From contig MHDQ01000267.1 of assembly GCA_001803565.1 (NCBI GenBank), positions 1 to 15,819 of the forward strand: DNA of 15,819 nucleotides. The letters run 5' to 3'. The DNA is from Nitrospinae bacterium RIFCSPLOWO2_12_FULL_45_22 (GTDB taxonomy: Bacteria; 2-12-FULL-45-22). How positions within the stretch are numbered: the stretch's first letter is position 1; each line of letters opens with the position of its first letter. Below, one piece after another: positions 1-8,797 of this stretch. The notes beneath the pieces are model-generated. The model was not told the origin of the DNA. It did no database searches and saw nothing but the letters and a program-made list of their open reading frames with translations. The position numbers and the translations under genes are program-made.

Positions 1-352
1 CCAAAAGATTGGTCAGAATAAGGTTAGGGAGCGAGCCTCGATACCTTCTTAATTGCTCAGAATCCTCCTGATCGCTAAGGTTTATATCAGGCAATTTGAC
101 CTCAATATAACCTACTATTTTCCCATCTGTCCTGATAAGGAAATCAGGGATGCCAACCGCGGTCCTTTTGGGCTGCACCAGCACCCCAGCATCCTCTTTA
201 GATAGGAATAAAGGCACACATTTCTCTATCAAGGTCTTTAAAAAAGGATAGAAGCTCTCTTCCCGGAAGTCCCCGGTCACATAAATCCCATGTATCTCCT
301 TAAAATAATCTTTAACAACCTCATCGAGCTTATCCCTCTCTGTCCCCTTCAT
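1..352 (-). CDS. PD-(D/E)XK nuclease-domain protein of a restriction system, 3' part beyond the window
   Basis: Partial gene: the first 117 residues are visible and the frame is open to the left edge. A nuclease core is readable: GIPDFLI (Asp70), then GYIEVK (Glu84, Lys86), then EQLRRYR (Gln100, Tyr104, a QxxxY-like motif), followed by LPNLILTN. This order, an Asp followed by ExK and then Q-L-x-R-Y, is what the N-terminal nuclease of type ISP-like restriction-modification enzymes and related PD-(D/E)XK nucleases shows. The ATG has a good ribosome-binding site (AAAGG) about 4 nt upstream. It lies 143 bp after the methyltransferase stop on the same strand, so it is probably the restriction partner. 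Whether the full protein is a stand-alone nuclease, a nuclease-helicase, or a second methyltransferase fusion cannot be told from here. The catalytic triad appears intact. Confidence 0.8.
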   Translation of the reverse strand, partial: MKGTERDKLDEVVKDYFKEIHGIYVTGDFREESFYPFLKTLIEKCVPLFLSKEDAGVLVQPKRTAVGIPDFLIRTDGKIVGYIEVKLPDINLSDQEDSEQLRRYRGSLPNLILTNLL

Positions 353-495: not shown

Positions 496-3400
496 TTAGC
501 TTCTTAGCATTTGTGCAACAAGAGCATCTATTTCATCTAATTCTCTTTTAAGTATTTGGCGCACCTTCAACCTTAATACACCAATGCTTTTTATCTTCCC
601 GAAGTGACCCGATTGAATCCACCTAGTAACCTCCTTGCTACAACTCTTTCCCAATTGAGTAAGCCGGAGATGATCCTTATTCAAGGGGTCAAATTGGGTA
701 ATAGGAAGCTCCAGGACTTTTTTATGAATATCCCGGGGGCCATACTGCCCCCGACTTTGCATAGGTTTTATTAACTTATCCGTAATGGGTGCATTAAGGA
801 TAGCTACGAGATAGTAAGCTTCATCGGCGTTCTCTGTCTCTAGGCAGTAAGTCTTAGTATCCGCCACAAACCCTCTAGACTCTATTTCCTGCCCGCCGAT
901 GTCAAACCTTATGGGTTTCTTCTCTACTATACAGGCTGTCAGATAAGTACCAGAAGTATTATAAAGCACCCGATACTTAACCTGCGGGTTTTGCCGGGAT
1001 AAGCCATGAACTCGGTCTAGCCTTTCATAAATACTCATACCTTCAGCCTTTGCACCTCGCTTCTTCCCCCATTCCTCCTGCGCCTTAATAAGCCAATCTT
1101 TGAGATGATAGAAACCTCTCACATGGGCCTTATCAACATTTAAGAGCCGGTAGCCATCTTTTACTGGTTCAATAGGAAGTACCACTAGCCGATAGTCTAG
1201 ATGCCCGAAGGGTAAGAGCTCGGCCGAGAGCAGAGTAGCATAGAGGAATCTGTTTTCTACATTCCCTCTTATCACTGCATTTTTATAATTGTTCTTGGCC
1301 TCTCTCCTGGCCCGCTCAGAACTTTCCAGAGGCGGAAGCTGGGGATCGAAACCCAAGATAGTAGATGCCCTGACCTCTACAAACCAAAAAGAGCGGGGAA
1401 CAATGGTAGCCCCTTGAAAGAAGTGCCTCTTGTAAAAACTCTCTTTTGACGAAACTAGGTCTTTCTCGATAGCCCAGAATGACCTTTTGCCCTTTTGGTG
1501 CAAGTAAAGCTCTACATCTTCTATTTTCAAACAACCCTCTGCTTCATCCAAAGAGGCATTGCGCCGAGGAAGTTTTCCCCTAAGTCTTTGACCTCGGATA
1601 GGATAGAATGCTTTTGCCTGCTTCTGTCTCTCGGCAAAGAGGACACAAGATGGTACCTGGAACAACGGCTTCACCTCCTCCGCGTCCCAAACCTCCTGGG
1701 GCTGTAACATCGAATCTTGATTTACATTAAGCTTAAATTTCCCCTGTCTCAGCCCATCGTGCTGATCAGCCGTAAAGATGCTCCTGGGAAGCACAAAACC
1801 TATTGTCCCTCCTTCTTTAAGATACAGATGGGCCGTCCTAAGTAGAAATAAGGTGCCTAATTCCAAGTGAGTAATAAGCTCACCACGTCCTGAAAAGAGG
1901 TTATAGGTTTTAGTGATTTGCTCCTTGAGAAATTGCTGATATTGAGGGTCAGCATAACGGAAGGCGAGCCAGGGAGGATTGCCGATCACAAAATCGAATT
2001 TACCCTTGAGGAATAGGGGCTTATAGATATTTTTGAGGATAAAGGCCCAGATAGTGTCCCGTCGAGACTCCATAAATTCCTTCAAAGCCTTAGTAATGCG
2101 GAAAAGGGCTTGTATAACGGTAATCTCTTTTGTTAAGGTTGTATGTTGTGTTCCAAGGTAGCTTAGAAACTGGGATTCATTGATATCTTTATTGATATTC
2201 TGCTGAGCAAATTCCCTGGCCGCATCTATGGCCTCATCGTAAAGAGTGGGACTTTCAAGAAATTTTTCGGGAAGATAGATAACTTTACCGTCTAACTCAA
2301 TTTTATAGTCAGCACCAGCGGCTTGTGCCCAGCGCTCCGGAAGCCTTATGGCATCTGAAAGGTAGACCGGTATGCTTATCTTTCCTTTGGTTTTACGTTT
2401 TTTGATAAGATCGCCCAAGGCAAGGAGATAATTAGTCTTGGCTATTATGGTAGCCAAGGGGTGAATGTCAACCCCAAATACCGAATGGAGGATATGGTCT
2501 AAGGTATTTTGCGTATCTGGTAATTTAATTCGCTTCTCCCGGATGATTAGATAGAGAAAGGTGCCAGAACCACAAGCCGGGTCCAAGAAGGATCTTTCTG
2601 GACTTTCTGCTATGAGTTTCTGAACCATGCGGTGGGCAAGCCAATCTGGGGTATAGAATTCCCCCAGGTCATGCCGGGTCTTGGGATCCACCAGTTCTTG
2701 ATAGAGGGACTTGAGGACATCCTCGGAAAGTTCTCTGAGATTATAATTCCGAAGGAGACTAAAAAGCCCTATCGCAATCTCTACACCGGTATCTTTAGCC
2801 TCCTCCCGGACGATCCAAGAAAAGAAATCCTCCTCCAGAAAGTTCTCTATCCCTTGCTCCTGGAAAAACCTTCCCCCCAATACCGAAAGGATCTGGTTAT
2901 TGTCCGGTGGGTTTTGGCTTTCAAAAAGTCGGCTCCAGACCATTAATTTAGCCAGGGTAGCTAAGTAAGTGTGTCGGCAAAATAGCTCTTCATCAGCCAC
3001 TGCACTACCGTATACAATGCGGAGATAGCGCTCCCACCCATCATAAATAACCTGGGTTTCTGACCTATCCCTGATGCTTTGCCAGAGGACAAAGAGGATA
3101 GCAGAAGCTACCTGAAAGGCATGGCTTCTGATCCCAAAATCTTTAATTATATCTTCTGTTTTTGGGGAAAGAATCTCTTTCCGGAGGAAATACCGGTCTA
3201 ACCAAAAATATACCGCTTGAGGAGGGGAAAATGACCAGTCAACCCGTTCAAGGGGTGTTAAGATCACATCTTCGGGGCTAATCTCTTCCTTGGCTGGTTT
3301 GGGGGCGGAAGGAGAATAGACTGCAAAATGCAACCCGTCCGTGGCTAGGCAAATATAAGGTGTTCGAGTTGGAACGGCTTCGGACGACCAAAGACAAGCT

Positions 3401-3744
3401 ACATATCTCCTGAGCTGGTCTTCGGCCTCCCTTTGGTTTATTATCAGGTCCCGCTCAAATTCAATAATCAGATTTCCAAAGAGTTCATCTATCCGGCCTT
3501 TAAGTATCCGGTCTTTTTGTTTCATCCTCACGTATTTTTCAACGCCAGCCAGGTAATCCTCTATAAAGCCTGGCTGGAGGCCGAAGAGTTCATTTAGTAA
3601 CAATAAAAATCGTTGAGACTTGGCAGGCTCACTATTTAATCCCTTTACAGATTCAATATATTCCGTAATGAGATTATCCCATTGGGATTGACGCACCTCG
3701 GGGATACGAACTGATTTTTCGTGCAGTTTACTTTTCTTTTCCAT
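496..3744 (-). CDS. Adenine-N6 DNA methyltransferase of a restriction-modification system (type IIG/Eco57I-like), 1082 aa
   Basis: Predicted to transfer a methyl group from S-adenosylmethionine to adenine N6 in a specific DNA sequence. Residues about 355-600 form the catalytic domain. GEFYTPDWLA precedes SAM-binding motif I, DPACGSGTFL (388-397), then FGVDIHPLA with an acidic residue for SAM ribose, and motif IV NPPW (589-592), the adenine-N6 signature. Residues ~600-720 continue the methylase fold, and the C-terminal ~350 residues probably hold the target-recognition domain. The N-terminal part carries GRIDELFGNLIIEFERDL (83-100) and then QLRRY (110-114). This looks like a PD-(D/E)XK nuclease core in which the usual ExK is Glu95-x-Glu97, so the nuclease may be inactive. 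The ATG overlaps the upstream RadC-like gene by 17 bp, with AAGGAAA 9 nt upstream, suggesting translational coupling. The exact R-M subtype is inferred, not shown. Confidence 0.88.
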   Translation of the reverse strand: MEKKSKLHEKSVRIPEVRQSQWDNLITEYIESVKGLNSEPAKSQRFLLLLNELFGLQPGFIEDYLAGVEKYVRMKQKDRILKGRIDELFGNLIIEFERDLIINQREAEDQLRRYVACLWSSEAVPTRTPYICLATDGLHFAVYSPSAPKPAKEEISPEDVILTPLERVDWSFSPPQAVYFWLDRYFLRKEILSPKTEDIIKDFGIRSHAFQVASAILFVLWQSIRDRSETQVIYDGWERYLRIVYGSAVADEELFCRHTYLATLAKLMVWSRLFESQNPPDNNQILSVLGGRFFQEQGIENFLEEDFFSWIVREEAKDTGVEIAIGLFSLLRNYNLRELSEDVLKSLYQELVDPKTRHDLGEFYTPDWLAHRMVQKLIAESPERSFLDPACGSGTFLYLIIREKRIKLPDTQNTLDHILHSVFGVDIHPLATIIAKTNYLLALGDLIKKRKTKGKISIPVYLSDAIRLPERWAQAAGADYKIELDGKVIYLPEKFLESPTLYDEAIDAAREFAQQNINKDINESQFLSYLGTQHTTLTKEITVIQALFRITKALKEFMESRRDTIWAFILKNIYKPLFLKGKFDFVIGNPPWLAFRYADPQYQQFLKEQITKTYNLFSGRGELITHLELGTLFLLRTAHLYLKEGGTIGFVLPRSIFTADQHDGLRQGKFKLNVNQDSMLQPQEVWDAEEVKPLFQVPSCVLFAERQKQAKAFYPIRGQRLRGKLPRRNASLDEAEGCLKIEDVELYLHQKGKRSFWAIEKDLVSSKESFYKRHFFQGATIVPRSFWFVEVRASTILGFDPQLPPLESSERARREAKNNYKNAVIRGNVENRFLYATLLSAELLPFGHLDYRLVVLPIEPVKDGYRLLNVDKAHVRGFYHLKDWLIKAQEEWGKKRGAKAEGMSIYERLDRVHGLSRQNPQVKYRVLYNTSGTYLTACIVEKKPIRFDIGGQEIESRGFVADTKTYCLETENADEAYYLVAILNAPITDKLIKPMQSRGQYGPRDIHKKVLELPITQFDPLNKDHLRLTQLGKSCSKEVTRWIQSGHFGKIKSIGVLRLKVRQILKRELDEIDALVAQMLRS

Positions 3745-4030
3745 GACTTAGAGTTTCCTTGATTATACGGCGGGCAATTTCAAAAGCCGCTGCGATCCGG
3801 ATAATTTTAACATCCGAAAGGCCTTTAATGTCCAAAAACCTCTCCAGCGGTTGGTTTGCCATCTGAGAAAGAGAACCAAACCTCTCCAGCACTTCCTCGG
3901 CAATCTTTAATGCCGGTCTCCCTTTAATACCTGCAGAAATGAGGATAGCCAGAAGCTCAGCCTCGGATAGGCTATCTGCTCCCAGTTCCCTTAATTTCCC
4001 CCCGGGATAATGCCACTTATTCATATTCAT
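3728..4030 (-). CDS. RadC/UPF0758 N-terminal helix-hairpin-helix protein lacking the JAB domain, 100 aa
   Basis: The sequence follows the N-terminal domain of RadC (UPF0758). KLRELGADSLSEAELLAILI (12-31) corresponds to the family's leucine-rich start, and LDIKGLSDVKIIRIAAAFE (66-84) is a helix-hairpin-helix DNA-binding motif. Full RadC proteins are about 220 residues and continue into an MPN/JAB domain with HxHP; this one ends after residue 100 with a lysine-rich tail. The stop lies inside the start of the methyltransferase gene (17-bp overlap), so the short length looks like organisation, not random decay. A likely role is a DNA-binding accessory of the restriction-modification operon (inference). 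The start ATG has AAGGA 5 nt upstream; a second ATG two codons later is possible. It could also be an old truncated radC kept by its neighbour. Confidence 0.8.
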   Translation of the reverse strand: MNMNKWHYPGGKLRELGADSLSEAELLAILISAGIKGRPALKIAEEVLERFGSLSQMANQPLERFLDIKGLSDVKIIRIAAAFEIARRIIKETLSHGKEK

Positions 4031-4217: not shown

Positions 4218-5360
4218 TCATTTCCCGTATTCTCTATGGTGAAAGAGATTGGGACAGCGCGACTGGAGAGTGAAATTTGCTACTTCCCATCCATGCCGAT
4301 AAACCCGCTCAAACTCATCCTCTGAGAGTCGTCGAAGCGAAGTTTCCAAGTCTGCTACTGTATTCACGCCGCACTCCGACAAGCTATTTTCAGTAAGAGC
4401 AGCGATCTTCTCTTCAGGTATACCCGCCTGCTCTAGAATGTATCGCGCAGTATTTCCCATTCTAAGATAGACCCCGGAATTGCAGTTATCTCGGAAATGG
4501 CTGACAAGGCTACGGGCTCTAAGGCTTCTCACTTGATCCATAGCTATATTCACAAGTCGGAATGCACGCCGATAAAGAGAAGATGGCTTCTCTATCTCAA
4601 TACCCTTTGATGCATCACTTACAATGAGGAAATTGTACTCATCACGAAACTTCTCACCTTGGGATTTGAACAGTGCCTCAACGGCTAAGTTGTCGTATAC
4701 ACCGCCATCCCAAAGATGTATTTTTTTAACCTCCGGCTCGACTGATTCAATCTTTTCCTCTGGATAGTTAACGAACCTGAACCACTTATATTTGTTAGTT
4801 CTCAGAATGATGGGACCAATGAGACCAGGATATGCAGCAGAAGCAGCCATCGCATCCGCTAAAGGAATTGCGGGATTACTCACATAGTTCAGAATATAGT
4901 CTCCCATTCGCTGCGGCATAAAACGCCAGTTCTTGCCGGACTCATAAGAGGTTGCATTTATAATCCAGCGAGGCTCGGTTGGTATATCCCTAAGAAGACC
5001 ACACACCTGCCAACAATGCTGAATGCTCTCGGAGAGCAGCTTGGCTTTTCCTTGAATAAGAAACCACGGCTGTGTAAGTAACTTAAATACTACATCATGT
5101 TGAATATTTGTCTGAGTGAGATAATACCTGGCCTGAGAGAGACTCTTATTAATGAAGGCATCGCTTGTTGGCCATCTATTTCCATAAATGGAGTAGATCA
5201 GGCCGATTCCTAAGCTTCCTCCCGAAACCGTAGAAATAAAGGTTATGTTTTCTAACAGTCCATCAGCGGCTAATCGGCCCAGAACACCAAAGTGAAATAC
5301 CGCTGCACGCACACCACCGCCCGATAGGGCGATTCCTATCTTTAGTGTGTCTCTACCCAT
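4218..5360 (-). CDS. Patatin-like phospholipase, candidate membrane-attacking effector, 380 aa
   Basis: Patatin-family lipid acyl hydrolase. The oxyanion-hole loop is SGGGVRA (13-19). The nucleophile elbow is STVSGGS with Ser46. The catalytic Asp is in WDGGVYDN (Asp218), giving the usual Ser-Asp dyad. The elbow has Thr where many patatins have the first Gly of GxSxG; Ser-rich variants like this occur in bacterial patatins, and the protein is probably active. ASAAYPGLIGP (173-183) is another typical patatin stretch. No signal peptide or transmembrane segment is evident, so it is probably cytosolic. It follows the E2-E1-JAB gene by 76 bp on the same strand. In CBASS, patatin-like CapV phospholipases are effectors that degrade the inner membrane after cyclic-nucleotide signalling. 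An effector role here rests on that parallel and the gene order. The residues C-terminal to ~250 are not recognised and might hold a ligand- or partner-binding part. Confidence 0.9.
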   Translation of the reverse strand: MGRDTLKIGIALSGGGVRAAVFHFGVLGRLAADGLLENITFISTVSGGSLGIGLIYSIYGNRWPTSDAFINKSLSQARYYLTQTNIQHDVVFKLLTQPWFLIQGKAKLLSESIQHCWQVCGLLRDIPTEPRWIINATSYESGKNWRFMPQRMGDYILNYVSNPAIPLADAMAASAAYPGLIGPIILRTNKYKWFRFVNYPEEKIESVEPEVKKIHLWDGGVYDNLAVEALFKSQGEKFRDEYNFLIVSDASKGIEIEKPSSLYRRAFRLVNIAMDQVRSLRARSLVSHFRDNCNSGVYLRMGNTARYILEQAGIPEEKIAALTENSLSECGVNTVADLETSLRRLSEDEFERVYRHGWEVANFTLQSRCPNLFHHREYGK

Positions 5361-5436
5361 TACGGTCCCATCTCTCTTTCTAGGTAGTTATTAACAGGAG
5401 GCTGTTTATAACTTTTAACACTCTAAATTGCTATGG

Positions 5437-7680
5437 TCAGAGCATTTGTCCTAGATACCATGCATACTGGCTGCGATCGCCAGTGATTAGCATCAATGGG
5501 GGAAACCCATCCGCAATCATATTCTCCGCGAGCCACATAAATGCTTTACGATCATCTTCACTCGGCCAGCAACCACAATCATCGGGATGTGAGTGCCACT
5601 CTCCCACATACTCCAGCATTCCTAATGTAATTTGGTGGATTTCATTCATGCGCATCATCAGGCCCTGACACCCACGAATATAGACTGTAGGCCATTCTTT
5701 ACTATCCGGTGGTGATGGTAGTGTGTCTAAAACATAAACAATCTTCCGTTGCATATCAAATGAGCCTACTAGCACACCTCCAGTCTCATTGGGCAATTTG
5801 TCAGCACGAGCATTATAGATTTTATTCACCAGCCATTGATCTGTGCATAACATCCAGTCACCAATTTTTTGCTTTATAATCAACTCAGGGTAAACTCGAT
5901 TACATTTTACACTCAAGTCACTGGTATCAGCTTGCCATATTATGATACTACAGTTCTCGTCTAAGAGTGTAGTACGCATCGCACGGCTACAGATAGCTGC
6001 ATGTAAAGCGACAAGATCTTGTGGTATGGTACTGCTGATGTCACGACATGAATTGGAGTATCGGATACGGGTATCACTTCTGCGCAAATGTTGCTCGAAA
6101 GCTGGGTTATTGATTAGATGCCGATAGTACTGCATCTCCAGGTAATCGAGAGTTGTATCCCTAGTCGCCCCTTCGGCCAGCATGACCGCATCAGAACCTG
6201 ATGGATTGAGAAACATTGAAATACGACGCGCAGACAAATCAATATCACGCGCCAGATGGCGTGCAACTGCTATGCTAGTGGAAAAATCTAAAATGACATC
6301 AGCTTCTCTAAAAGTATCTTGTATTTTTTCAGTGGATTTAGGATTCAGAATATCTTCAACAACCCCCGTTGCTATAGGTTCCCCTTTGACGAGTTCATTA
6401 GCAATAAAGGCAAGTGCCTCCGACTTAGGGTAACCAACAGCAAAGCCTGGAAGCGCATGGCGTGCAAGATTGTGAGGCAAGAAGTAATCCTCATCAATTA
6501 AGGTCCATTCGCCATATCCCATCCGAATTAGATTCATAAATACCTGTGAACCCAGTGCACCCAAACCGATAGCTACAATTCTTCTGCCCTCCCTTTGTGA
6601 TAAACCATTAAGCTGGATAGCAATATCTCTTGAAAACGAATACGTGGGCTTAAGCAGAAGAATCACCACATTGTTGCCTTGTTTAGTTTGGTCTATCTCT
6701 AATAAGGTGCCCAGTTCACCATCCTTAGTCTCCCAAATCCCAATCTCTTCTCCAATTTCCTTGATGGTGTTTACGCTCAAGAAAGCCCAAATATCCGTTA
6801 CCTCTACCGTACTCGTTGCCCCCCGCGTCTTAGGGAGAGCCAGAATTACTATAAGCTTAGCATCGAGTATGTCCATATGTGGCTTATTTATTTGCCAATC
6901 GCGCAGACATTTCCGCAACTCCTCCAATAAATCAACCCGAGCCTTAGTCGTAAACTCATGTAGTTCAAGTAAGTTTTTCGGCTGTTTGTAAATTATGCCA
7001 TGAGTCTGAGGAGAGCACTGGATAGCAGTCGCAACATAAGTAGGCTTATTTGGGTCTCTTGATTTACTTTCTATCCGTTCTGCAATAAGGGTTATTCTAT
7101 TATTGCCTCCATCTATTGGCTGGATTGTAAGCAGTTCGGGAACCTCGAGGCTATTATTCGAGAACAGGTCAAATGGCACAACTAACTGCCAAGGAGATCC
7201 CATTAATAGGGGCTCTAGCGGCTGGTATTCTCCATGAAGTTTCCCCTTGGCAGTCAATGTCAGCCATTCACGAATGCGCTCAATAAAACGTGGGGCTGTC
7301 CAGCGCAGTTTCAGCTCGCTGTACCTTTCCTCGAATAGGCAAAGACTCCGAGGAAATTCCTGCTCTCTCAAGTTAAGGTGAGGTACTCTTGGGAAATTAT
7401 CACGCAGTGCCAATACTTCAGGAGCCATTTTGTCAGCAGGATCAAAAATTACAGCAATACGTTCATCCCGATAAATATCATGAACATTTATTTGGCCAAT
7501 TTCGACTTCAGTTTCAAAAACAACAACTTCTGCCTGAATCTGGTCGGCAATTCGTCGGCACTCTAAGAGACGAACAAAAGGCAACCTCTTTAATGCACAA
7601 ACCACCTCCCTTGCCTTAAAGATTCTAAGTTCTTCGGGGGTGATGACCTCACCTGACGGCGGAAGGTAATTAATAGACAT
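5437..7680 (-). CDS. E2-E1-JAB triple fusion: ubiquitin-like conjugation, activation and deconjugation enzyme (Cap2/Cap3-like), 747 aa
   Basis: Three parts are visible. (1) Residues ~20-155 look like a prokaryotic E2 (UBC fold): VPHLNL (99-104) then PRSLCLFEE with candidate catalytic Cys114, then a Trp and a C-terminal helix ending in GKLHGEYQPLEPL. (2) After a ~200-residue linker, residues ~365-600 are a ThiF/E1 adenylation domain. It has GLGALG (372-377) for ATP, DEDYFLPHNLARH (396-408) for Mg/ATP, Lys419, and Asp465 in LDFSTS. Cys545 in NSCRDISSTIPQDL is the probable E1 catalytic cysteine. (3) Residues ~620-747 are a JAB/JAMM metalloprotease: Glu632 (NETGGVLVG), HSHP (His696, His698), Ser707 and Asp710. 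The E2-linker-E1 layout matches CBASS Cap2, and the JAB domain matches Cap3. The start overlaps the MBL gene by 11 bp with GGGGGA 4 nt upstream, so the two are translationally coupled. No ubiquitin-like protein is encoded nearby, so the substrate is unknown. The E2 call is the least certain of the three. Confidence 0.9.
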   Translation of the reverse strand: MSINYLPPSGEVITPEELRIFKAREVVCALKRLPFVRLLECRRIADQIQAEVVVFETEVEIGQINVHDIYRDERIAVIFDPADKMAPEVLALRDNFPRVPHLNLREQEFPRSLCLFEERYSELKLRWTAPRFIERIREWLTLTAKGKLHGEYQPLEPLLMGSPWQLVVPFDLFSNNSLEVPELLTIQPIDGGNNRITLIAERIESKSRDPNKPTYVATAIQCSPQTHGIIYKQPKNLLELHEFTTKARVDLLEELRKCLRDWQINKPHMDILDAKLIVILALPKTRGATSTVEVTDIWAFLSVNTIKEIGEEIGIWETKDGELGTLLEIDQTKQGNNVVILLLKPTYSFSRDIAIQLNGLSQREGRRIVAIGLGALGSQVFMNLIRMGYGEWTLIDEDYFLPHNLARHALPGFAVGYPKSEALAFIANELVKGEPIATGVVEDILNPKSTEKIQDTFREADVILDFSTSIAVARHLARDIDLSARRISMFLNPSGSDAVMLAEGATRDTTLDYLEMQYYRHLINNPAFEQHLRRSDTRIRYSNSCRDISSTIPQDLVALHAAICSRAMRTTLLDENCSIIIWQADTSDLSVKCNRVYPELIIKQKIGDWMLCTDQWLVNKIYNARADKLPNETGGVLVGSFDMQRKIVYVLDTLPSPPDSKEWPTVYIRGCQGLMMRMNEIHQITLGMLEYVGEWHSHPDDCGCWPSEDDRKAFMWLAENMIADGFPPLMLITGDRSQYAWYLGQML

Positions 7681-8797
7681 TAGTTCCCCCAGCCCTTGGG
7701 GCAGGCCGACTTATTATGCCTATACTACCACTGAGAATTGTTTTTCTAAGTGTTGCTTTTGATCCATCTATGGTGATGCGTACTGGTGCGGGACTGGATG
7801 GCTTGGGATACTCCATAGTTACGACGAAGTCACCCGTAATAGCTGAGGCACGTTCATTATAGTAGTTGGCCGCTTGAGGGTGGGGAGGTTGAGGATCTTC
7901 ATAATTCTCCGGTATCCGGTTGCTACTTGATACTAAAATCCCTCTCTCGAAACCCTGCTCAAATAACCATTTTACTTTAGGAAATGGTTCTGTCTTAACC
8001 TCTCCCCTCTTGCTACTCAGTGCCATATAGCTACAATGATGAGGAATATTAAATACATCCCATGCTAGACGCTCGTCTCTCTTATAATACCTAGTAATAT
8101 TCACAATATCGGCCAAAATTTCATAAGTTGTGTCCCCGCATATCATGAACCGGGTGACTTTTGCATCATACACAAATGTAGCCTGAAGTATGAGTGAACA
8201 CTCATTACGATCAACCAAGTTGCCATCTTTTAGGCGGACAGCAAATGGTGAATGTACAAAGAATTCGACTCCTTCAGATTCCATTGTAAAACCTGGGACG
8301 AGCTGGCCGGCGTCTGTTATTAGATGCTTGCGGTGTTCCAGTTTTAGACCCTCATTCTCGAGCCACGCTAAGAGTCTATCTGGACGCGAGAAAACTCTAA
8401 TTCCTTTGCCAGCCTTCAAGCGGTGTCGGGCCTCGGCACGCAATATCCTGGCTTCACCCTCAAGGTTCTCCTCAATGATCATCGCTGCGGGAACCCAAAG
8501 TTCAGTAATTTTGATACGATTATCATCTTGATATTTTTTCGCATGTTCCAGGTAAAAAAACTCAGAGGCACCATGAATGTGGTCATCATCGGCATGAGTG
8601 AAAGCTACAACATCATAATAGTCTCGGTTAGCTGCTTTAAGGTCTTCACGGAGAGCGGTTGCTAAGTCAATTCGTAGATCTTCCTCGTCTTCCGCATTAC
8701 GATAATGTGCGTAGTCAAAAAGCAGTTTACGCCCACAAGCGAGATCAATCTGACAACAGTCTGCATTCCCGATTGGGAAAAAGGTTAGGGTGTGCAT
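7670..8797 (-). CDS. ComEC/Rec2-type metallo-beta-lactamase-fold hydrolase, 375 aa
   Basis: Metal-dependent hydrolase of the MBL fold, closest in motifs to the soluble domain of ComEC/Rec2. The metal motif is THADDDHIHG (His68, Asp70, Asp72, His73), the HxDxDH form used by ComEC in place of HxHxDH. Further motifs are NECSLIL (198-204), MICGDT (Asp222), IPHHCS (His253, His254) and PHP (His306). There is no signal peptide and there are no membrane helices, so unlike ComEC it is a free cytosolic protein. Possible substrates are nucleic acids or nucleotides, by analogy only. It is the first gene of the cassette: the ATG has a strong AAGGAGGA 7 nt upstream, and a 524-bp gene-poor stretch precedes it. 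The last 22 residues form a Pro/Gly-rich tail ending in RAGG (368-371) plus TNVY. The tail lies outside the fold and might be a processing or conjugation site (speculative). Confidence 0.9.
   Translation of the reverse strand: MHTLTFFPIGNADCCQIDLACGRKLLFDYAHYRNAEDEEDLRIDLATALREDLKAANRDYYDVVAFTHADDDHIHGASEFFYLEHAKKYQDDNRIKITELWVPAAMIIEENLEGEARILRAEARHRLKAGKGIRVFSRPDRLLAWLENEGLKLEHRKHLITDAGQLVPGFTMESEGVEFFVHSPFAVRLKDGNLVDRNECSLILQATFVYDAKVTRFMICGDTTYEILADIVNITRYYKRDERLAWDVFNIPHHCSYMALSSKRGEVKTEPFPKVKWLFEQGFERGILVSSSNRIPENYEDPQPPHPQAANYYNERASAITGDFVVTMEYPKPSSPAPVRITIDGSKATLRKTILSGSIGIISRPAPRAGGTNVY

Follow-up and report, generated by a model that had tools for sequence, protein, structure and literature searches.

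A cyclase-free 6A-MBL operon of a Nitrospinae bacterium with a patatin-like third gene and a conserved C-terminal glycine tail on its MBL protein

RESULTS

Three genes of a putative anti-phage operon

In the window, i.e., the whole 15,819-nucleotide stretch of Nitrospinae DNA that was analyzed, three minus-strand genes encode, in this order, an MBL-fold protein, an E2-E1-JAB fusion, and a patatin-like phospholipase (Table 1). We propose that they form a three-gene 6A-MBL anti-phage operon, in which the MBL protein would be conjugated by E2-E1, the JAB domain would trim the MBL or reverse its conjugation, and the patatin would kill via the membrane. From sequence comparison, we put the probability of this reading at roughly 60%. 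The two-gene core belongs to a known system; a recurrent, interchangeable third gene and a conserved tail on the MBL protein appear to be the two additions that go beyond the sources cited here.

The MBL and E2-E1-JAB genes overlap by 11 bp (positions 7670 to 7680), and 76 bp separate the E2-E1-JAB gene from the patatin gene. The gap contains a short inverted repeat that folds only slightly better than shuffled sequences (z = -1.6). Genes, strand, order, overlap, gap, and catalytic motifs, all described in an earlier sequence-only reading of this DNA, were verified in the open reading frames (ORFs) and by domain searches, and the same three-gene order was found again in many phyla, i.e., beyond chance. 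In alignment A1, the window row lacks the first Met, and its numbering therefore runs one residue behind that used in this text.

Pfam searches detected Prok-E2_A (3e-20), ThiF (3e-13), and Prok-JAB (4e-10) domains on one 747-aa protein. Catalytic C114/H101 of the E2 part are present and conserved among relatives. The E1 part exhibits a GxGxxG motif (372 to 377), D396/D398, and an invariant C545 as the candidate E1 cysteine, and the JAB part contains an intact E632, H696xH698...S707xxD710 set. PADLOC models for E1-E2 and JAB matched the fusion, the NCBIfam Cap3 model scored far under its cut-off, and the BubCD model matched the window only weakly. At another locus (L067), MBL and E2-E1-JAB were read in a single continuous frame of 1160 aa. 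The conjugase frames at L081 and L164 were also unusually long, and natural fusions or sequencing frameshifts may account for all three cases.

Table 1. Features of the window, with positions counted from its first nucleotide
Feature	Position	Strand	Basis
MBL-fold (ComEC-type) protein, 6A-MBL_enzyme, 375 aa	7670..8797	-	ORF, NF058524 (410.6 bits), fold match
Disordered C-terminal tail of MBL, residues 354-375, ending in ISRPAPRAG followed by GTNVY	7670..7738	-	pLDDT <50, invariant Gly370
E2-E1-JAB fusion, Cap2+Cap3-like, 6A-MBL_cap2_3, 747 aa	5437..7680	-	Pfam domains, NF058523, invariant catalytic residues
Prok-E2_A domain, residues 53-172, catalytic C114, H101	7165..7524	-	Pfam, conserved residues
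ThiF/E1 adenylation core, residues 353-476	6253..6624	-	Pfam, conserved residues
JAB/JAMM domain, residues 618-735, E632, H696, H698, D710	5476..5829	-	Pfam, conserved residues
E2-E1-JAB/patatin gap with short inverted repeat GUUAUaAACAG...CUGUUaAUAAC	5361..5436	-	
Patatin-like phospholipase, 380 aa, proposed effector, Ser49/Asp218 dyad	4218..5360	-	PF01734 1e-15, recurrent position, invariant motifs
RadC/UPF0758 N-terminal domain alone, 100 aa, without JAB part	3728-4030	-	
Type IIG restriction-methyltransferase	496-3744	-	
N-terminal start of second type IIG restriction-methyltransferase	2-352	-	

The core is a known, cyclase-free system

Both core proteins scored far above the curated cut-offs of the NCBIfam family labeled "anti-phage 6A-MBL system." The fusion matched NF058523 ("6A-MBL_cap2_3") with 647.7 bits (cut-off, 320), and the product of the adjacent, overlapping MBL gene matched NF058524 ("6A-MBL_enzyme") with 410.6 bits (E = 5e-123; cut-off, 220). 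The pair also corresponds to operon type 6a, "usually with two genes," with the same core proteins in the same order (Iyer, Burroughs and Aravind 2006, PMC1779556). Given these scores and the earlier description of the pair, the two-gene core is a known, separately named cyclase-free system and hence not new. Full-text literature searches found no paper originating the 6A-MBL name, in which parts of the present findings may be published. The catalogued system has two components, whereas the window and most relatives examined add a third, membrane-directed gene, coding for either a patatin or a transmembrane (TM) protein; 0 of 32 such patatins and 0 of 23 TM proteins matched the NCBIfam 6A-MBL models.

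In four sampled phyla, the system was present in 24 of ~1,589 genomes, centre genomes included. The host phylum was represented by two genomes in the collection searched. The family was also found in 261 plasmid records (E ≤ 1e-20), mostly of Klebsiella but from many hosts, and a phage collection of 50,697 records gave no match, so that a phage-borne copy was rejected.

A search for SMODS (CD-NTase) found no match in the whole 3.67-Mb host assembly (85% complete). Thirteen of 50 host genomes of relatives contained a CD-NTase above the cut-off anywhere in the genome, and 12 of the CD-NTases from relatives' genomes made up the profile with which loci were scanned. It matched one ORF in the 91 loci of the main set (see below), 2.8 kb from the cassette, and a single locus (L150) of the 18 in a second sample, i.e., 2 of ~108 related loci, in agreement with the earlier observation that no CD-NTase is present in or near the cassette. 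A CBASS remnant lacking its cyclase was ruled out, since relatives across many phyla are also without a cyclase.

Type II CBASS comprises a CD-NTase, Cap2 (E1-E2), Cap3 (JAB), and an effector such as CapV. The window cassette resembles it in its E2-E1 and JAB chemistry, in a conserved C-terminal Gly of the kind that a conjugation substrate would carry, in effectors that are exchanged between loci, patatin phospholipase among them, and, at some loci, in WYL-type regulators. In contrast to type II CBASS, the CD-NTase is absent, the MBL takes the place of the cyclase, there is no cyclic nucleotide evidence, and E2-E1 and JAB are fused into a single protein. The sequence-only reading had interpreted the locus as a cyclase-less CBASS-like cassette; this name gives way to membership in 6A-MBL (type 6a), while its proposal of a defense-type operon without a cyclase is supported.

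The MBL protein carries a conserved glycine tail

An AlphaFold model of the MBL showed an ordered ComEC-like domain (pLDDT 90.5) followed by a disordered tail (residues 354 to 375; pLDDT <50). Its closest PDB fold was the ComEC MBL domain (9ic4, E = 3e-15), which together with the NF058524 score confirmed the first gene as a ComEC-type MBL; the Pfam match was weak (0.09). MBL folds also include cyclic-nucleotide-binding phosphodiesterases (7e3w). The metal site is intact (H68xD70xD72H73, D222, H253), with ligands invariant across 66 sequences. All 66 cassette MBLs matched the PADLOC models LmuA and RTasMBL, and 50 matched Avs1a.

Though located in the disordered tail, Gly370 was among only 27 invariant columns in the alignment of 66 sequences. 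The tail spans ~22 residues with a conserved (A/S)PRAG end, to which the window MBL adds a 5-residue extension (GTNVY) after Gly370. Each of the 87 intact main-set MBLs exhibited [RKQ]xG at or near the C terminus (RAG in 72), nearly always followed by 0 to 8 residues, compared to a background of about 1% among other ORFs of at least 250 aa at the same loci. In 55 of the 87, the tail ended exactly at the Gly, and the others had a short extension. Among 11 non-cassette MBL homologues, the motif occurred in one, a ComEC, which we regard as coincidental. Divergent 6A-MBL members retain the Gly without PRAG (HG, QG, FG), which counts against the proposed model.

In type II CBASS, a conserved C-terminal Gly/Ala is limited to cyclases with Cap2/Cap3 and marks the residue conjugated by Cap2 (PMC10097602), and removal of the cyclase C-terminal Gly abolishes conjugation and weakens defense (PMC10097602; PMC11153139). 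Here, a conserved Gly tail was found on the MBL and not on a cyclase. The MBL tail is conserved in a similar manner, which most simply suggests that the conjugated partner is probably the MBL, via its C-terminal Gly. The suggestion of the sequence-only reading that the MBL might be a "modified partner" thereby gains specific support from the conserved disordered -PRAG tail. Because GTNVY follows Gly370 in the window, the JAB would have to expose this Gly.

The third gene often encodes a patatin or a small membrane protein

The window patatin matched PF01734 (1e-15) and contains SGGGxR, GGS49LG, and D218GG motifs that are invariant among relatives. Related loci were compared in a main set of 91, made up of the window, the 80 best relatives among 84,980 genomes, and 10 loci on plasmids. 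The set is weighted to window-like conjugases, and 3 of its 10 plasmid loci had been found via the patatin itself. With genes called by a simple ORF caller and hydrophobic segments by Kyte-Doolittle thresholds, a patatin was located directly downstream in 34 of 89 related loci, compared to 2 of 718 other genes (Fisher p = 2e-33), and a small TM protein (100 to 350 aa, at least 2 hydrophobic segments) likewise in 34 of 89, compared to 36 of 718 (Fisher p = 1e-25). Twenty-nine of 33 same-strand patatins overlapped the end of E2-E1-JAB or lay within 20 bp of it. In the nearest relative (L014), which belongs to another phylum, the patatin was 72% and the E2-E1-JAB 57% identical to that of the window. 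The second sample consisted of 18 loci obtained with the curated model, of which L160 was apparently the same locus as L055 and remained uncounted. Of the resulting 17, 8 had a patatin and 5 a TM gene next door, 2 had a TM gene nearby, and 2 had none.

Recurrence in both samples ruled out the patatin as a chance neighbor, and at the sequence level, the patatin is a recurrent component of 6A-MBL loci. The sequence-only reading had staked its proposal on the patatin commonly adjoining the MBL/E2-E1-JAB pair, which is what we found; it had missed the membrane proteins that often fill the same slot. Two features of the window also count against our preferred explanation: the window patatin matched none of the PADLOC and NCBIfam defense models, and the 76-bp gap preceding it is looser than the overlaps at other loci. 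Among the other 6A-MBL patatins, some matched models of anti-phage phospholipases from CBASS or DS-2, and a few matched models of CBASS cGAMP-activated lipases. Outside 6A-MBL, relatives of the window patatin on two Rhizobium plasmids (L106 and L107) adjoin an uncharacterized gene (~630 aa), and at L107 also an MBL gene; in both cases CBASS cyclases are encoded no more than a few kb away, and another patatin-based defense system is possible.

With this crude gene calling, about one-sixth of the main-set loci had no patatin or TM gene next door, which would be compatible with an accessory role of the third gene. Several loci seemingly without a third gene, however, had a TM gene that lay either upstream or on the opposite strand, and upon re-examination the assignment of Klebsiella and others as free of a third gene was rejected. 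The divergent TM protein of Klebsiella is 46 to 51% identical to TM proteins that, in other phyla, are encoded directly downstream.

For most TM third genes, no described family was matched, and Pfam gave no reliable match. Some resemble Csx27, a membrane protein of type VI-B CRISPR (Cas13b) loci, with E values down to 2.5e-12 (L019:9393-10142, L023:9360-9998, L031:9100-9768, and L056:9186-9782); none is present in the window. Another group (A4) is the main 4-TM family, of about 250 aa with WGGxPT and NxxYGFxRN motifs, which is tied to 6A-MBL operons (e.g., L017:3687-4430) and has no Pfam entry; a PDB fold search with a confident model (pLDDT 93.7) returned nothing at E ≤ 0.001.

On a tree of the 91 conjugases (quick LG+G4, SH-aLRT support only), the patatin label changed 15 times, at least 13 of them forced by well-supported branches, and all labels together changed 35 times. 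Even between two Poribacterial sisters with 69% identical conjugases, the third gene codes for a TM protein in one (L016) and a patatin in the other (L018). Because its type changes repeatedly on the tree, the third gene behaves like a swappable, membrane-directed effector, as far as can be judged from these comparisons. Effector exchange behind one core is a pattern known from CBASS.

Genomic surroundings

The window cassette sits in a small defense island beside nrdD and metK, as indicated by the RadC fragment and the type IIG restriction genes that come after it. The RadC fragment, which follows the patatin gene, shares 17 bp with the type IIG gene behind it. A divergent WYL-regulator gene directly upstream of the 6A-MBL operon, recalling CapW, one of the WYL regulators under which some CBASS operons stand, was found at 17 loci (L005, L009, L010, L037, L039, L064, L067-L069, L072, L075, L077, L079, L082, L148, L150, and L161), the window not being among them. 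Elsewhere, the third gene often adjoins a second MBL-like gene that differs from the 6A MBL (e.g., in the order MBL1, E2-E1-JAB, effector, MBL2; L148, L149, L150, L153, L154, L157, L160, L162, L019, L040, L044, L047, and L071); the window has none.

DISCUSSION

In the proposed model, the JAB domain would remove the 5-residue extension after Gly370 and thereby mature the MBL tail. E2-E1 would adenylate the C-terminal Gly (...APRAG) and attach the MBL covalently to a target of either the cell or the phage, and the JAB could later undo the conjugate, as Cap3 reverses the conjugation of CBASS cyclases. The MBL domain, putatively a ComEC-like metal-dependent phosphodiesterase or nuclease, would serve as a sensor or switch enzyme, the conjugated or enzymatic state of which would shift upon infection. 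The switched state would release the third-gene product, i.e., the patatin phospholipase here and a small multi-TM protein elsewhere, which would damage the membrane and stop the phage (abortive infection). The exchange of unrelated effectors behind a shared core makes a generic trigger likely, either a diffusible MBL product or covalent attachment of the MBL.

Of the interpretation offered by the sequence-only reading, the cyclase-free defense operon, the recurrent patatin, and the MBL as modified partner were thus retained, but not the classification as a CBASS variant without a cyclase.

Bil/Bub operons conjugate a dedicated beta-grasp ubiquitin-like protein. They resemble the cassette in that E1, E2, and JAB occur together with a protein carrying a C-terminal glycine, whereas the putative modifier in the window is the MBL enzyme. 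No separate beta-grasp ubiquitin-like gene was found among ORFs of at least 90 aa in the cassette region, and the modeled MBL tail is disordered. Lamassu LmuA, the DRT-associated MBL, and Avs1a of AVAST-1 represent the same ComEC-type MBL lineage used in anti-phage systems, but lack a link to E2-E1-JAB, and the non-cassette MBL homologues examined had no PRAG tail except for the one ComEC.

This kinship suggests another explanation, in which the MBL itself is the effector, a ComEC/Lamassu/Avs1-type nuclease with activity or location governed by conjugation, and the patatin and TM proteins merely boost it in some loci or belong to other systems next door. It fits the uniform LmuA and RTasMBL matches (and the 50 to Avs1a), the ComEC fold with its invariant metal ligands, the loci without a patatin or TM neighbor, and the description of the operon as "usually" two-gene in PMC1779556. 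However, most loci have an adjoining patatin or small TM gene, far over background and, in the case of same-strand patatins, mostly overlapping or within 20 bp, and the "two-gene" Klebsiella version has its divergent TM gene with relatives located downstream elsewhere. We consider this explanation unlikely.

Less probable still is CBASS-like signaling, in which the MBL would make or remove a small nucleotide ligand, the effectors would sense this diffusible signal, and conjugation would merely tune the MBL, as Cap2 primes cyclases. Unrelated effectors (patatin and several TM families) swapped behind the same core would be expected for a shared trigger, and both the 7e3w-type phosphodiesterases among MBL folds and the few patatins matching cGAMP-activated lipase models are consistent with it. 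Against it, a cyclase is absent nearby; moreover, MBL enzymes hydrolyze and are not known to synthesize signals. Finally, that the patatin is an unrelated defense-island neighbor or a metabolic gene outside the system, as its 76-bp gap, own start signal, and the following type IIG restriction gene might suggest, is very improbable and largely refuted by its recurrence next to the core in 35 to 36 of 91 loci, which span many phyla and include that of the nearest relative, and in 8 of 17 loci of the independent sample.

A more far-reaching and tentative reading, for which we see somewhat less than even odds, is that in an E1-E2-JAB system free of both cyclase and ubiquitin fold, an active ComEC-type nuclease or phosphodiesterase plays the part of the ubiquitin-like modifier, and that the conjugation state of this enzyme gates swappable membrane-killing effectors (patatin, Csx27-like, and the undescribed 4-TM proteins). 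If true, 6A-MBL would gain two uncatalogued pieces: a conjugated partner, i.e., the MBL with its invariant C-terminal Gly, and a killer in the form of an interchangeable membrane effector. The model would be directly testable by single-residue mutants. The undescribed 4-TM family and the Csx27-like proteins would be placed as candidate defense effectors outside CRISPR, and CBASS-style logic, which combines an enzyme bearing a conjugatable tail with swappable membrane effectors, would work without a nucleotide cyclase.
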